Below are positions 33,973 to 39,994 of a stretch of 64,000 nucleotides of DNA, piece by piece. The notes beneath the pieces were generated by a model. It did not search any database. It was not told the DNA's origin and saw only the letters and a program-made list of their open reading frames with translations. Within the stretch, counting starts at the first letter, position 1. Every line of letters starts with the position of its first letter. The stretch spans positions 62,001 to 126,000 of the forward strand of contig FZLS01000001.1 in assembly GCA_900197625.1 (NCBI GenBank), given 5' to 3'. The DNA comes from Rhodobacteraceae bacterium Water-Bin34. Its GTDB lineage: Bacteria; Pseudomonadota; Alphaproteobacteria; Rhodobacterales; Rhodobacteraceae. A program made the position numbers and the translations under genes.

Positions 33973-36375
33973 ATGAAAGTTCAAGACAAAAACCTGACTA
34001 ATAAAACAACAATCAGTCCATCTTTATCCCAAAGAGCTATGGGAGGTAGGTCTACATCATATTTAAATGATTTGAATCCGTCTCAAAGATCAGCAGTTGA
34101 AACTCTGAATGGGCCGGTGCTTATGTTAGCCGGAGCAGGCACTGGTAAGACTAAAGCGTTAACTGCCAGAATCGTTCATTTAATGAATATGAGTCAAGCA
34201 AGAGCTAATGAAATTCTTGCTGTAACATTTACAAATAAAGCTGCTCGTGAGATGAAGAATCGTGTTGGGGTAATGCTCGGTAATGTAGGTGATGGACTAC
34301 CTTGGCTTGGAACTTTTCATTCTTTATGTGTTAAAATACTACGCAGACATTCAGAGTTGGTTGGATTAAAGTCAAATTTCACAATTCTCGATACTGATGA
34401 CCAGTTAAGGTTGTTGAAGCAATTATTAAAAGCAGAAAATATTGATGAAAAACGATGGCCACCACGATTATTATTAGGCCTCATTGATACTTGGAAGAAT
34501 CGTGCTTGGAATCCAGATCATGTGCCATCGGGTGAAGATGGCTTTAATGGCAGAGGTGCTGAGTTTTATTCGCAATATCAAAATCGCTTAAAAACTCTAA
34601 ATGCAGCTGATTTTGGAGATCTTTTGTTACACGTTGTGAATATTTTTCAGAACAATCCTGACATTTTAGAGAAATATCAAAATTGGTTTAAGTACATATT
34701 GGTTGACGAATATCAAGATACTAATATCGCTCAATATATGTGGTTACGTCTTATAGCCGCAAAACATAAAAATATATGTTGTGTAGGTGATGATGATCAA
34801 TCAATTTATGGTTGGCGCGGTGCAGAGGTTGGAAATATTTTACGTTTTGAACGAGACTTTGATGGTGCTAAAGTTGTTCGTTTAGAACAAAATTATAGAT
34901 CTACTCCAGATATTCTAGCTGCTGCTTCAGTTATTATAGCAGGCAATAAAGACCGGTTGGGAAAAACTTTATGGACTGATCGTAAGGATGGGGAAAAAGT
35001 GCGCTTGATTGGCCATTGGGATGGTGAAGAAGAAGCGCGTTGGATAGGAGAGGAACTCGAGAGCTATCAAAGAGGTAGCAGGGGGCATGCACCCTTTGGA
35101 TTGGATAGTATGGCGATTTTAGTAAGAGCATCTCATCAAATGCGCGCATTTGAAGATAGATTCTTAAGTATTGGATTGCCATATAGAGTTATAGGTGGCC
35201 CAAGATTTTATGAACGAATGGAAATCCGTGATGCAATGGCTTATTTCAGGGTAGCAGTAAGCCCTGATGATAGTCTTGCTTTTGAACGTATAGTTAACAC
35301 TCCTAAACGTGGTATCGGAGAAAAAGCATTACTGTTAATCAATGCTACTGCGCGTAACCACGGCGTATCTATGCTAGAAGCTTCGCGCATTTTGTGCACT
35401 GATGGTGGATTTTCTTCAAAAGCACGTAATTCTTTAAAGAAATTAATAGATGGATTTGATCGATGGAATAATTTGATTTCTATTTCCCAAAATTCTTTTG
35501 ATCCTGAAAATGACATTATAGAAACTATGAATGATGTTCCAGGTAAGCTTAATCATGTTGAAATTGCTCAAGCCATATTAGAAGAAAGTGGTTACACAGA
35601 TTTTTGGCAAAATGATAAAACACCAGAAGCGGCTGGTAGGTTAGAAAACTTGAAAGAACTTGTGAAGGCTTTGGAAGGATTTCAAAATATTCAAGGTTTT
35701 CTTGAACATGTAAGTTTAATAATGGAAAATGATGTTTCAGACTCAACTGAAAAAGTGTCAATCATGACACTTCACGGGGCTAAAGGTCTTGAATTTCCAA
35801 TAGTTTTTTTGCCAGGCTGGGAGGATGGATTATTCCCGTCACAAAGATCAATGGATGAGTCTGGTCAAAAAGGCTTAGAAGAAGAACGTCGTTTAGCATA
35901 TGTAGGAATTACTCGCTCAGAAGCGATCTGTACTATTTCATTCGCAGCTAATCGTCGAGTATACGGTCAATGGCAGTCGTCAATGCCATCGAGGTTTATT
36001 GATGAATTACCTGCGGATAATATAGAGGTCCTAACTCCACCTGGTCTGTATGGTGGAGGTTCCTCAAGACAAGACATCGAATTTGAAAGTGATTTACCTG
36101 AGCGTGCTGCAAAGGCTGATGCATATAATTCCCCTGGTTGGAAACGGATGCAAATTAGAACATCGCAACGCTTTTTAGATAACTCAGAAACCCCTCAAAC
36201 TGTAATTATAGACGCTAAAGTTACAGAAAAGTATTCAATTTCTGATAGAGTAATGCATGCAAAGCTTGGTGAGGGCACTGTTATTGGTATTGAAGGAAAT
36301 AAGCTCTCTATAGTATTTGACTCCGGTGGAGCAAAAAAAGTAATTGCAAGTTTTGTGTCTCATTTAAATAATTGA
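33973..36375 (+). CDS. uvrD: ATP-dependent DNA helicase UvrD/PcrA
   Basis: An 800-residue SF1A 3'-5' helicase for excision and mismatch repair. Motif I is LAGAGTGKTKALTARI, Ia is VTFTNKAAREM, II is ILVDEYQDTN, III is GDDDQSIYGWRGAE, IV is LEQNYRS, V is IMTLHGAKGLEFP and VI is EERRLAYVGITRSE. The C-terminal end (DRVMHAKLGEGTVIGIEGNKLSIVFDSGG) is the Tudor-like domain, as in PcrA. The N-terminal 30 residues precede the conserved core and may be disordered. It converges with the small RNA and tup genes. Confidence 0.95.
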   Translation: MKVQDKNLTNKTTISPSLSQRAMGGRSTSYLNDLNPSQRSAVETLNGPVLMLAGAGTGKTKALTARIVHLMNMSQARANEILAVTFTNKAAREMKNRVGVMLGNVGDGLPWLGTFHSLCVKILRRHSELVGLKSNFTILDTDDQLRLLKQLLKAENIDEKRWPPRLLLGLIDTWKNRAWNPDHVPSGEDGFNGRGAEFYSQYQNRLKTLNAADFGDLLLHVVNIFQNNPDILEKYQNWFKYILVDEYQDTNIAQYMWLRLIAAKHKNICCVGDDDQSIYGWRGAEVGNILRFERDFDGAKVVRLEQNYRSTPDILAAASVIIAGNKDRLGKTLWTDRKDGEKVRLIGHWDGEEEARWIGEELESYQRGSRGHAPFGLDSMAILVRASHQMRAFEDRFLSIGLPYRVIGGPRFYERMEIRDAMAYFRVAVSPDDSLAFERIVNTPKRGIGEKALLLINATARNHGVSMLEASRILCTDGGFSSKARNSLKKLIDGFDRWNNLISISQNSFDPENDIIETMNDVPGKLNHVEIAQAILEESGYTDFWQNDKTPEAAGRLENLKELVKALEGFQNIQGFLEHVSLIMENDVSDSTEKVSIMTLHGAKGLEFPIVFLPGWEDGLFPSQRSMDESGQKGLEEERRLAYVGITRSEAICTISFAANRRVYGQWQSSMPSRFIDELPADNIEVLTPPGLYGGGSSRQDIEFESDLPERAAKADAYNSPGWKRMQIRTSQRFLDNSETPQTVIIDAKVTEKYSISDRVMHAKLGEGTVIGIEGNKLSIVFDSGGAKKVIASFVSHLNN

Positions 36376-36402: not shown

Positions 36403-36456
36403 AAAAAAAAACGATAACATGCTGGGAGGAGGTTGCATATTATCGTTCTTTTTTTT
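36403..36456. terminator. Bidirectional terminator shared by uvrD and the small RNA
   Basis: A 13-base stem (36410-36422 with 36435-36447, one mismatch) has an A run before it (36403-36411) and a T run after it (36449-36456), so it can stop transcription from both directions. Its loop holds GGGAGGAGG (CCTCCTCCC on the minus strand). Confidence 0.75.
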
Positions 36457-36535
36457 CGCGGCTTCTTTTTGGGAGAATATGAAGCCGTATAAATTTTTCG
36501 GTCGGGAGGAGGTGACCGAAGAGTTTTTCATCTCA
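36403..36535 (-). ncRNA. Candidate anti-Shine-Dalgarno small RNA (CcsR/cuckoo/ar14-like)
   Basis: On the minus strand three hairpins follow in order: TTCGGTC-loop-GACCGAA (36520-36497) with CCTCCTCCC in its loop, CGGCTTC-loop-GAAGCCG (36487-36459) with TTCTCCC in its loop, and a 13-base terminator stem (36447-36410) with CCTCCTCCC in its loop followed by a T run. Loops of this exact motif define the conserved alphaproteobacterial CcsR (Rhodobacter) and ar14 (rhizobia) RNAs, which can pair with ribosome binding sites. No reading frame covers the region. The 5' end is uncertain; TATTTT at 36548-36543 could be a -10 element. Confidence 0.7.
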
Positions 36536-36589
36536 TAGGTTTAAAATAGCAAATGTTTGAATCTTTAAAAGTGTTTATACTGCAAAGCC

Positions 36590-36610
36590 GATATGCATCT
36601 GATGCATATC
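36590..36610. promoter_or_regulatory. 21-bp palindrome between tupA and the small RNA
   Basis: GATATGCATC and GATGCATATC are perfect 10-base arms around one base, starting 14 bases past the tupA stop codon. No T run follows on the minus strand, so it is more like an operator than a terminator. It lies about 55 bases upstream of the presumed small-RNA start. Confidence 0.4.
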
Positions 36611-36623
36611 CCTAGATATGTAA

Positions 36624-37451
36624 TTAATTCGCAGGACATACTAATAAACTATTGATATTTGTTTTGTCTGCGTTTGGGCAGAATAGTTGTTTTCCATCAA
36701 CTTTGTATTCTCCAATCGCTTTTTGGCCTTTTGATGATACCATCCAATTTGCAAACTGTTCAGCAAATTTTGATTTTATATGTGGGAATTTATTAGGATT
36801 TACTAAAATTAATCCGTAGGGATTTTGCATTATAGTGTCACCAGCCCATTTGATTTCTAAATTGCCTTTGTTGTTAAAAGATAACCAAGTGCCCCGATCA
36901 CTTAATGTGAATGAATTTGTTGCAGATGCCATGTTTAAAGCAGCACCCATTCCAGAACCTATTTCAATGTACCATTTTCCATTTGGCTTATCATTAGTAA
37001 AAAAATTCCATAATTCTAATTCTTTTTTGTGAGTTCCACTATCATCTCCCCTTGAAATAAATGGAAATAAACTTGTTGATTTAGCTTTAACAAAGAAATC
37101 TGAGAGTTTTTCAAACTTTGTCTTATCACTTTTTGGGCCAATTAGTACAAAGTCATTATACATTACATCAAAACGCACTATGCCAAAGCCATTTTTCATA
37201 AAAAGATCTTCAGAGGGACGGTGGTGAACTAATAATGCATCTGCATCACCGTTTTGTGCTATTCTAATTGCTTGGCCTGTACCAACAGCTACAACTTTAA
37301 CCACAACACCTGTATCTTTTGTAAACATTGGAAGGATATAATCATAAAGCCCTGAATTTTGTGTTGATGTTGTTGATGATAAGATAATTTCTCGATTTTC
37401 CGCATTAACAGAACTTGCAAGAATAAAAAGCAATATTGCAATAATTTTCAT
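36624..37451 (-). CDS. tupA: Tungstate ABC transporter substrate-binding protein TupA
   Basis: A 275-residue periplasmic oxyanion-binding protein. A signal peptide (MKIIAILLFILASSVNA) precedes ENREIILSSTTSTQNSGLYDY; the TTSTQNSGL motif binds tungstate in TupA. ALLVHHRPSE, FISRGDDSGTHKKELELW and NPYGLILVNP are further family segments. Its start overlaps tupC by 1 base. TupA proteins prefer tungstate over molybdate, though this clade was not tested. Confidence 0.9.
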   Translation of the reverse strand: MKIIAILLFILASSVNAENREIILSSTTSTQNSGLYDYILPMFTKDTGVVVKVVAVGTGQAIRIAQNGDADALLVHHRPSEDLFMKNGFGIVRFDVMYNDFVLIGPKSDKTKFEKLSDFFVKAKSTSLFPFISRGDDSGTHKKELELWNFFTNDKPNGKWYIEIGSGMGAALNMASATNSFTLSDRGTWLSFNNKGNLEIKWAGDTIMQNPYGLILVNPNKFPHIKSKFAEQFANWMVSSKGQKAIGEYKVDGKQLFCPNADKTNINSLLVCPAN

Positions 37452-38146
37452 TACAAACCTTTTATATAGTTATTAGCTTTGGTTGATGACGGATTATTAA
37501 AAAACTTTTTTGCTTCGCTAATTTCAGAAACTTTACCGTCAGCTATGAAAATTATATCATCAGCAAAGCGTTTTGCTTGCGTTATGTTATGTGTTGCCCA
37601 TAAAAATTTTATTCCAGAATTTGCATTTTGTGAAATTAATTTTTCAAATTCAGTAGTAGCGCTTGGATCTAAACTAGATGTGGGTTCATCCATAATTACC
37701 ATTTTGGGGTATGTAGCAAGCGCTCTAACCAAAGCCATACGTTGAACTTCACCACCAGAAAGCGTTGATGCTGGTTCCTCACTTTTTGACTGGAGGCCTG
37801 CCATATTTAGTAGTTCTTCAAGACGGTCTTCTATTAATTTATTATTCCATCCTGCAGTCTGCATTGGGAGGGCTATATTTTTTTTCACTGATCTATATAA
37901 AGTTACTCTGTGTTGAAAAATGAATCCTCTCGAGTATTTTGTATCCTCTGCCAGATTACCGTTCCAATGCACACATCCCAAAGTTGGGTTAATCATAGCG
38001 TGACACATTTCTAAGAATAATGATTTTCCAGCACCATTATATCCAAGAACATTTGTAATTCCCCTAATTTTCGATTCGAAATCAATTGGACCAAGCAAGG
38101 TATCGCCATTTTGACAAAAGGAAACAGAATTAAATTTCAGCTGCAT
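37451..38146 (-). CDS. tupC: Tungstate ABC transporter ATPase TupC
   Basis: A 231-residue ABC ATPase with Walker A GYNGAGKSLF (about 35-44), Q loop FIFQHRVTLYRS, signature STLSGGEVQRMALVRAL, Walker B MVIMDEPTSSLD and the ATHN switch histidine. It lies between tupB and tupA with 1-base overlaps on both sides, a tightly coupled operon. Confidence 0.9.
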   Translation of the reverse strand: MQLKFNSVSFCQNGDTLLGPIDFESKIRGITNVLGYNGAGKSLFLEMCHAMINPTLGCVHWNGNLAEDTKYSRGFIFQHRVTLYRSVKKNIALPMQTAGWNNKLIEDRLEELLNMAGLQSKSEEPASTLSGGEVQRMALVRALATYPKMVIMDEPTSSLDPSATTEFEKLISQNANSGIKFLWATHNITQAKRFADDIIFIADGKVSEISEAKKFFNNPSSTKANNYIKGL

Positions 38147-38847
38147 TACCGTAATGCCCTATGATATTTTTGGCCTAAAGATTTAAAAATATGCATGACA
38201 GAATTTACTCCAACTGCCAGCATTACAAGAATTATTCCAAGTGCTAATGCAAGTTCTAAATTTCCTTTTGATGTCTCTAAAGCTATAGTGGTCGTCATCA
38301 CACGAGTGGAGCCTGCTATATTTCCTCCAACAATAATAACTGCGCCTACTTCTGCTATTGCTCGACCAAACCCTGCTAAAACTGCAGTAAAAATTGAAAA
38401 CCTTGCATCCATAATCAAGATTTTTAGACGAAACCATCTTGATGCATCAACGCTGTTAAGTAAACGTCTGTAATGTTTTTCAAGCGGACTTACCGACTCA
38501 GTTGTTAACGCTAAAATAATCGGAAAAATTAGAACTGATTGAGCAATAATCATTGCAGTTGGAGTAAATAGCAATCCGTATTCACCAAGTGGGCCTGATC
38601 TGGATAAAAGTAAATATATAGCCAGTCCTACTACAACGGGTGGTAACGCCATTAAAGAAGATGAAAACATAATTATTACTTTACGCCCTGTAAATCTTCC
38701 CATTGCTAATGAAGTTCCAATTGGGATTGCAAAAAAAGCTGCTATTAAAGTTGCAGATAATGAAATTCGTAAAGATAAGAAGACAATACTCCATAAAGTA
38801 GCATCACCAGACGAAATTAAATTAAATGTTGCATTTAAAATATTCAA
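38146..38847 (-). CDS. tupB: Tungstate ABC transporter permease TupB
   Basis: A 233-residue inner-membrane permease with about five to six helices. The coupling loop facing the ATPase carries EAA-like residues in the IAEVGAVIIVGGNIAGSTRVMTT region. It uses a TTG start at 38847 because no ATG or GTG fits nearby. Gene order is tupB-tupC-tupA, unlike the more usual A-B-C order. It is divergent from mrp. Confidence 0.88.
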   Translation of the reverse strand: MNILNATFNLISSGDATLWSIVFLSLRISLSATLIAAFFAIPIGTSLAMGRFTGRKVIIMFSSSLMALPPVVVGLAIYLLLSRSGPLGEYGLLFTPTAMIIAQSVLIFPIILALTTESVSPLEKHYRRLLNSVDASRWFRLKILIMDARFSIFTAVLAGFGRAIAEVGAVIIVGGNIAGSTRVMTTTIALETSKGNLELALALGIILVMLAVGVNSVMHIFKSLGQKYHRALR

Positions 38848-38932: not shown

Positions 38933-39994
38933 ATGTCTATCACAGTAGAAGCAATTATCGAAGAGTTGAAGAGAGTTCAATTGCCAGATGGAAGTAATAT
39001 CGTTGACGCTGATATGGTGCGCGCTGTGACTATTAATGATGGTAAAGTAAATTTTGTTTTAGAAGTTCCAGGTGATATTGGCGAGCGTATGGAACCAGTG
39101 AGGTCTGGCGCTGAAGCATTAATATTAAGAATGGATGGTGTTGATCAGTGTAATGTTATGATGACAGCCCACAGTGCACCAAAACAGCCACCAAATTTAA
39201 AAATTGGAGGTCATGCAAAACCTCAAGACGATAAACAGCCAATTGATGGGGTTAAAAGAATTATAGCAATTGGTTCAGGAAAAGGTGGAGTTGGCAAATC
39301 AACAGTTTCCAGTAATTTAGCCGTAGCATTATCAAAGCTTGGTTTGAAAGTTGGTCTACTTGATGCAGATATTCATGGTCCGTCACAGCCAAGGATGATG
39401 GGTGTATCAAAACGACCAGCCAGTCCAGATGGCAAAACAATTATTCCGTTGCAAGCACACGGTGTAACAATGATGTCCCTTGGATTAATGCTGAAAGAAG
39501 ATGAGGCAGTGATTTGGCGAGGGCCAATGTTAATGGGCGCATTGCAACAAATGTTAAATCAAGTTCAGTGGGGTCAACTAGATGTATTATTAATAGATCT
39601 ACCGCCAGGTACTGGTGATGTGCAGCTCACTTTGTCTCAGAAAACGGAAGTTTCTGGAGCCATTATAGTGTCTACACCACAAGATGTAGCATTATTAGAC
39701 GCAAGAAAAGCGATAAATATGTTCGAGCGAATGGAAGTTCCAATAATTGGAATGATTGAAAATATGTCTAGCTACCACTGTCCAAAATGTGGTCATGAGG
39801 AATATATTTTTGGGCATGGAGGGGCGCAAGAAGATGCTAAAAAATTTAATTTACCATTTTTAGGCGAAATTCCATTAGAATTAGAAATTCGTAAAGCAGG
39901 AGATGGAGGTACTCCAGTTGTTGCTACTAACAGCAAGCATTCTAATGCTTATCTTAATTTGGCCCAAAAACTTATAGATGGTGGCATATTATGA
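38933..39994 (+). CDS. apbC: Iron-sulfur cluster carrier Mrp/ApbC
   Basis: A 353-residue P-loop ATPase that delivers Fe-S clusters. An N-terminal DUF59/MIP18 domain (about 1-90) is followed by the deviant Walker [18 protein letters not shown] (about 113-129), [29 protein letters not shown], and the cluster-binding CPKCG in [22 protein letters not shown] precedes the ATG. It overlaps the following thioesterase gene by 4 bases. Confidence 0.92.

Follow-up and report, generated by a model that had tools for sequence, protein, structure and literature searches.

Genomic context of the RNA gene

The window, by which the whole analysed stretch of 64,000 nucleotides is meant, contains a gap of 248 bases between the convergent genes uvrD (ending at 36375) and tupA (ending at 36624), and a small RNA gene is predicted in this gap on the minus strand (Table 1). 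The initial annotation had placed here minus-strand hairpins that carry an anti-Shine-Dalgarno (anti-SD) motif in two loops, a degenerate middle loop, and a terminator stem with a T run; the size of the gap was confirmed, as were the hairpins, base by base. A T run is present on the plus strand too, so the stem of hairpin 3 may also terminate uvrD. The terminator at 36403-36411 is absent from the output of a consensus terminator scan, the loop limit of which is 8. The tup-like proteins (36624-38847) score below the curated cut-offs of the tungstate families, and their substrate is therefore uncertain.

Table 1. Features of the uvrD-mrp interval, with positions in the window
Feature	Position	Strand	Basis and remarks
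uvrD	33973..36375	+	Convergent neighbour; Pfam UvrD-helicase
Small RNA gene	36403..36536	-	ar14 match, R1 match, fold z, covariation; 5' end putative
Terminator T run, nine T	36403..36411	-	Direct sequence reading
Hairpin 3, terminator stem, loop ACCUCCUCCC	36410..36447	-	Motif CCTCCTCCC at 36424-36432; 7/18 pairs with double changes
Hairpin 2, loop ATTCTCCCAA (RNA: AUUCUCCCAA)	36459..36487	-	Loop at 36469-36478; 4/6 consensus pairs with double changes
Hairpin 1, loop ACCUCCUCCC	36497..36520	-	Motif CCTCCTCCC at 36504-36512; 4/7 pairs with double changes
5' mini-hairpin GAG...CTC, three pairs	36521..36534	-	Consensus structure of 7 genomes; 90.5% of cells paired
Likely -10 box TATTTT, after TGC	36543..36548	-	Similar boxes at the aligned position of genus copies; putative
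Possible -35 region CACTTTTAAA	36564..36573	-	CACTTYTAAA in six genomes including the window; putative
LsrB-like operator ATGCATCAGATGCATATCGGCTTTGCA	36581..36607	-	TGCA-N6-GCAT at 36606-36593; similarity to known box
tupA-like gene	36624..37451	-	Upstream neighbour; NCBIfam tung_bind_TupA, 231.9 bits (cut-off 400)
tupC-like and tupB-like genes	37451..38847	-	Domain matches
mrp-like gene, ATPase of Fe-S carrier type	38933..39994	+	Other border of the site; Pfam ParA/FeS_assembly_P

The motif CCTCCTCCC occurs in exact form only twice in the window, namely in loops 1 and 3, and four times in the whole genome (3.6 Mb), two of them in this RNA. Shuffled windows contained 0.11 exact copies on average, and a same-strand pair within 133 bases was present in none of 300. 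Copies with up to one mismatch are not rare (4 in the window versus 3.3 expected), and the weight thus falls on the exact pair and its hairpins. One further exact genome site (GGGAGGAGG/CCTCCTCCC) lies just before an ORF of 205 amino acids without a Pfam match (L003 149-781, G000:C154); the ribosome-binding site of this ORF is the perfect GGGAGGAGG complement of the loop, and its contig is small and possibly a contamination. Behind the other exact site, no ORF of at least 40 amino acids was found in the stretch read.

Conserved structure and variable loops

On the minus strand, the region folds with -42.6 kcal/mol (z -8.1), which was equalled by none of 200 shuffled sequences. A plus-strand RNA was rejected as the main product: its fold is weaker (z -3.9), and its loops would read GGGAGGAGG. 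Seven of 17 genus copies, including that of the window, were used to build an alignment, a consensus structure, a covariation test, and a covariance model, R1. From these seven genomes, RNAalifold recovered all three hairpins and the small stem at the 5' end unaided. In the alignment, 15 of 34 pairs show changes on both sides, and 94.4% of the cells are paired, versus 84.1% in shuffles (reached by 0 of 500) and 40-56% when the partners were slid. The case for the 5' mini-hairpin is weak because none of its pairs changed on both sides. At E <= 0.01, R1 matched 18 of the 61 genomes searched, 17 of which belong to the genus of the window. The RNA was the sole match at this threshold in the window's own genome (139 bits, the window sequence being a training sequence), where its copy number is one at the thresholds used. 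Clear matches outside the training set were obtained in G021 (2.5e-13), G014 (5.8e-12), and G020 (4.2e-9).

Loop motifs were tallied, and upstream regions compared in detail, in 17 of the 25 genus copies, the differently spaced copies of G031, G004, G016, G012, G010, G003, G027, and G019 being left aside. The full motif occupies loop 1 in eight copies, loop 2 in four, and loop 3 in 11. CTCCTCCC is present in all three loops of three copies and in at least one loop of 15, and loops without it are found at all three positions. The shorter CTCCC is kept in 50 of the 51 loops, and CUCCC stands in the middle loop of all 17 copies. The window shares its middle loop, ATTCTCCCAA, unchanged with G030 and G022, which stand closest to it on the tree, while the surrounding stem differs; the middle loop of G002, G007, and G023 is UCCUCCCUGUU (DNA: TTCCTCCCTGTT), close to CUCCCUGUU of the SorY model. 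Within the genus of the window, a short middle loop is nothing out of the ordinary. The initial annotation had considered a middle hairpin with a decayed motif unusual, a view that did not survive the comparison because the loop is common to the window and two relatives and loops lacking CTCCTCCC occur at every position. The reading of the middle loop as a single isolated decayed copy was rejected on the latter ground.

Relation to known anti-SD RNAs

At the gathering thresholds of Rfam, the whole window contains three tRNAs and nothing else. Below threshold, the RNA matches ar14 (RF02344) from end to end (36407-36532; 46.9 bits, E 8.5e-8), against a gathering score of 58.8. This is the only credible Rfam match, the other five sub-threshold matches having E values of 3 to 7.4. 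In the relatives, ar14 was matched at E <= 1 in 34 of the 61 genomes, and the gathering score was reached in one. The assignment of a minus-strand RNA to the ar14/CcsR (cuckoo) type is therefore supported both by the covariance-model search that the initial annotation had proposed and by conservation. In particular, comparison of the same gap in relatives revealed a conserved motif, structure, and site; hence, the absence of the loop motif from relatives, which had been named as a possible counter-argument, did not arise. Two other stretches (G031:C1:863263-863773 and G034:C10:28967-29561) each hold five tandem ar14 matches, overlapping or adjoining, and represent arrays of anti-SD hairpin units.

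The ar14 RNAs are described as having three hairpins with CCUCCUCCC in every loop (PMC10746234), and SmelA075 (ar14) is likewise depicted with three hairpins and CCUCCUCCC in the loops (PMC3927594), whereas RSs0680a of Rhodobacter sphaeroides has two anti-SD hairpins (PMC3927594). The two hairpins that the initial annotation ascribed to described members are thus right for RSs0680a/CcsR and wrong for ar14; as three hairpins are the ar14 norm, the hairpin number is not unusual. The broad cuckoo class is defined by hairpin modules with anti-SD loops, the number of modules being variable (PMC3927594), and the present RNA has several such hairpins, in which the anti-SD loops are exposed and the stems vary.

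The RNA resembles ar14/NfeR1 of Sinorhizobium meliloti in its length (approx. 123-134 nt), its three hairpins, the presence of CCUCCUCCC in loops, and the terminator within hairpin 3; moreover, as in NfeR1, TGCA-N6-GCAT lies upstream, and a promoter of its own is predicted. It differs from ar14 in that CCUCCUCCC is found in two of the three loops, the middle one reading AUUCUCCCAA, in its score of less than 58.8 bits, and in its placement at the uvrD-mrp site. One copy was found here, compared with the six loci described in S. meliloti (PMC7143759). CcsR1-4/RSs0680a, encoded with ccaF1 in R. sphaeroides, follow the same RNA principle; unlike them, the RNA has three rather than two anti-SD hairpins, no DUF1127 gene (ccaF1) upstream in the same operon or elsewhere at the site, and an LsrB-like box. 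In the ccaF1-CcsR operon, the CcsR RNAs are reported to follow ccaF1, to be expressed from an RpoHI/RpoHII promoter, and to be cut from a longer precursor (PMC10253847). SorY/SorX and AbcR (ar15) share the C-rich anti-SD seed but have another architecture and fewer seeds. Because of the sub-gathering score and the departing middle loop, the RNA was not filed as a strict ar14 member. It appears to belong to the anti-SD hairpin class as a variant and should work alike.

The conserved site and the loss of a linked DUF1127 gene

In 24 of 25 genus loci, the tup genes directly precede the RNA on its strand; tupA adjoins the RNA in 20 of them and tupC in four. The usual order in many genus members is tupBCA, the RNA, a DUF1127 gene, further hairpins, and uvrD. 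The position behind a metal-transport operon, to which the initial annotation drew attention, is indeed conserved; however, operator- and promoter-like boxes intervene, and G010 has the RNA at the same site without tup. What the comparison shows for the tungstate-type operon is conserved adjacency rather than a partnership. A direct tungstate link was rejected, the start regions of the three tup genes giving -3.3 to -4.7 kcal/mol against loop 1 and the window median being -4.2. In other Rhodobacteraceae, tup-like genes are also encountered near uvrD (L073, L041, L089), on either strand and with no clear link to the RNA.

Among 80 Rhodobacteraceae loci, 59 contain at least two clustered anti-SD hairpins within 5 kb past uvrD on the strand opposite to uvrD; on the other strand, no such array was found (0/80). 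A DUF1127 gene accompanies the array on its strand in 55 of these 59 loci, and in 41 of them, with mrp within the locus, the array begins before the mrp gene. No array was detected by the same test in 21 loci, five of which span less than 2 kb past uvrD, and the short locus L056 is counted among the 21. Going by the relatives of its uvrD, the organism of the window falls within the Rhodobacteraceae close to Amylibacter; at the same place, Amylibacter ulvae (L036) has three hairpins of this kind. The arrays at the uvrD-mrp site of relatives are like ccaF1-CcsR in combining a DUF1127 gene with hairpins, a likeness that concerns the gene plan.

No DUF1127 gene was found in the 4.5-kb stretch that covers the uvrD-mrp interval of the window (L186). 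The window's genome contains seven DUF1127 matches, and the six listed all lie elsewhere. The gene is absent from the site in seven of 23 tree genomes (the window, G030, G022, G002, G007, G023, and G020). In a tree of the Mrp, TupB, and LysR proteins of these 23 genomes, labelled by locus inspection and with a root chosen by the analyst, six of the DUF1127-less genomes join with a support of 0.96, and the DUF1127-bearing G017 is their sister. G020 groups with the DUF1127-bearing G021 and G014 (support 1.0). From this topology, two losses of DUF1127 in the genus are the simplest reading, according to which the clade of the window would have lost the linked gene and kept the RNA. In G017, a block of mrp, tup, RNA, and DUF1127 lies far from uvrD (L180, G017:C2); there, the RNA thus stays with mrp and tup and not with uvrD. 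In G023, approx. 590 bases separate uvrD, in plus orientation, from the RNA, and they contain no DUF1127 hit (L161 313-901).

An LsrB-like operator and its wider set

If transcription starts at 36536, the putative 5' end, TGCA-N6-GCAT occupies positions -70 to -57. In S. meliloti, LsrB is reported to bind TGCA-N6-GCAT at about -72 to -57 (or -60) of NfeR1 and to activate this RNA (PMC10746234). The VtlR box is given as GCAT-N3-TG-N3-T (PMC7486931, PMC8844928), a form from which the window operator is one base off. An extended pattern, ATGC-N7-GCATA-N-C-N-G, precedes the RNA in 25 of 25 genus copies; the count covers 25 of 30 stretches, as the RNA was not placed at the site in L171, L181, L183, L184, and L185. 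The operator stands at a near-constant distance from both the -10-like box and the first loop (17 copies), and that of the window is the only site with no mismatch in its own genome. A sigma-70 consensus scan found no minus-strand promoter and did not list the -10 box at 36543..36548. The consensus terminator scan detected no terminator in the interval from tupA to the RNA, which leaves room for read-through from tup.

A candidate for the cognate regulator is encoded in the same genome. The best PDB match of its LysR gene is Agrobacterium tumefaciens LsrB (9HH1, E 1.1e-75), the next reaching 8.5e-31. The LsrB-like LysR gene is followed by a SorY-like RNA with an LsrB-type box (L206 578-1654, G000:C148); this RNA scores 47.0 bits, against a gathering score of 111. 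A search of 28 same-genus genomes recovered the regulator in 26 at E <= 1e-70. Of these 26 loci, 23 have the SorY-type CTCCCTG motif after the regulator, and 20 have a box within two mismatches there, with 0.1 expected from shuffles. Neither element was seen by the regulator in three loci, two of them at contig ends and one being that of G017. In the window's genome, the regulator-side box, by the SorY-like RNA, has two mismatches.

The box also precedes DUF1127 genes. Of 71 distinct DUF1127 ORFs, 48 have it upstream within two mismatches (approx. 1 expected from shuffles of the upstream sequence) and 32 within one (0.05 expected); before the other 23, no box lies within two mismatches. These ORFs come from loci L035-L126, which are related by descent, with the same-gene pairs L036/L123 and L061/L101 merged, and the shuffles behind the expected numbers, here and for the regulator loci, preserve base composition only. 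Boxes with one, one, two, and three mismatches lie near four of the seven DUF1127 genes of the window's own genome. The unlinked DUF1127 genes of this genome with a similar upstream operator, at one to three mismatches, are those at L202, L203, L207, and L219. At up to three mismatches, this genome contains 23 hits, compared with 10 for a reversed control pattern, so single sites with two or three mismatches mean little alone.

Such a set recalls the LsrB/VtlR regulon of the Rhizobiales, in which a LysR regulator, anti-SD RNAs, and DUF1127 genes with a related box are likewise combined; unlike that regulon, it lies in Rhodobacteraceae and is predicted only. VtlR of Brucella melitensis is reported to activate chiefly AbcR2 and three DUF1127 genes (PMC12595884), and AbcR1 is described as activated by LsrB/VtlR (PMC10746234, PMC7486931, PMC8844928). 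LsrB has been stated to appear unique to Rhizobiales (PMC11975290). The LsrB-like match in the window's genome, together with matches at 45-50% identity from other families of the class, may call this restriction into question.

Proposed mechanism and alternative explanations

These observations suggest that the locus probably encodes a free-standing, trans-acting anti-SD hairpin (cuckoo) RNA, which has its own promoter past tupA, is controlled in the LsrB/VtlR manner, and is unlinked from DUF1127. The RNA would be transcribed from a promoter just past tupA, and its level would be raised by a LysR regulator of the LsrB/VtlR type that binds TGCA-N6-GCAT. The same regulator may also control the SorY-like RNA, along with several unlinked DUF1127 genes. 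On several mRNAs, the exposed C-rich loops would pair with GGGAGGAGG-like ribosome-binding sites, and such pairing would block translation and promote mRNA decay. The two full loops could provide redundancy, with the middle loop offering a shorter CUCCC seed. In NfeR1, three redundant loops are reported to silence mRNAs, and LsrB is described as ROS-responsive in Rhizobiales (PMC10746234). Since the linked DUF1127 gene was lost in the clade, any help from a DUF1127 protein must come from elsewhere. A target screen of 63 of the 79 ORFs of the window yielded nothing convincing.

Other readings of the locus concern the origin of the transcript or its switch. There is some chance, albeit a modest one, that the switch of the same RNA is not the LsrB homologue but a different LysR-type protein or an RpoH-type sigma factor: the box is assigned by similarity alone, it fits the VtlR form only with one change, and CcsR of R. 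sphaeroides is described as RpoH-driven (PMC10253847). However, the exact TGCA-N6-GCAT stands at the position reported for LsrB (PMC10746234), the same box precedes many DUF1127 genes, which are known VtlR targets in Brucella (PMC12595884), and it follows the regulator gene, ahead of the SorY-type motif, in most genus loci read. It is less probable still that the RNA is cut from the 3'UTR of the tup transcript and that its level tracks metal uptake. Such an origin would suit the nearly constant presence of tup directly upstream on the same strand, the absence of a detected terminator between tupA and the RNA, and the processing of CcsR RNAs from a longer precursor (PMC10253847); a conserved operator and a -10-like box nevertheless separate tupA from the RNA, their spacing being nearly constant, the RNA of G010 has no tup beside it, and 54 of the 59 family arrays have no tup hit past uvrD on the array strand.

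Two further explanations deny the RNA a present role. The missing DUF1127 gene and the shortened middle loop might mark a decaying relic that is on its way out, having lost its partner and one loop motif. This is very unlikely, given that the clade retains the structure, the operator, and at least one CTCCTCCC loop and that shortened loops also occur in genus copies with a DUF1127 gene alongside. The flanking of hairpin 3 by A and T runs, through which it could terminate both strands, might alternatively reduce the locus to a mere bidirectional terminator between convergent genes, with functionless C-rich loops. Such an account is barely tenable in view of three hairpins where one suffices, the retention of CTCCC in all loops but one while the stems change with compensation, the upstream operator in every genus copy counted, and the multi-hairpin arrays that occupy the site elsewhere on one strand only.

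Significance

It has about an even chance of being true that the LsrB/VtlR-type circuit, which consists of one LysR regulator, ar14-like and SorY-like anti-SD RNAs, and DUF1127 proteins, extends past the Rhizobiales to the Rhodobacteraceae, in many of which it controls the CcsR-like locus. Within the genus of the window, the RNA would then have been unlinked from DUF1127 at least twice and would work with DUF1127 proteins provided in trans via the same operator. A literature search found, among the matches listed and in their titles and abstract openings, no description of this operator at CcsR-like loci of Rhodobacteraceae. The locus links work on NfeR1/AbcR and LsrB/VtlR in Rhizobiales with work on CcsR/SorY and RpoH in Rhodobacter. 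The clade without a linked DUF1127 gene is a natural experiment on the dependence of cuckoo RNAs upon a DUF1127 protein. Should the box prove real, the level of RNAs that block ribosome sites would be set, in marine bacteria, by a LysR protein with a redox link in Rhizobiales.
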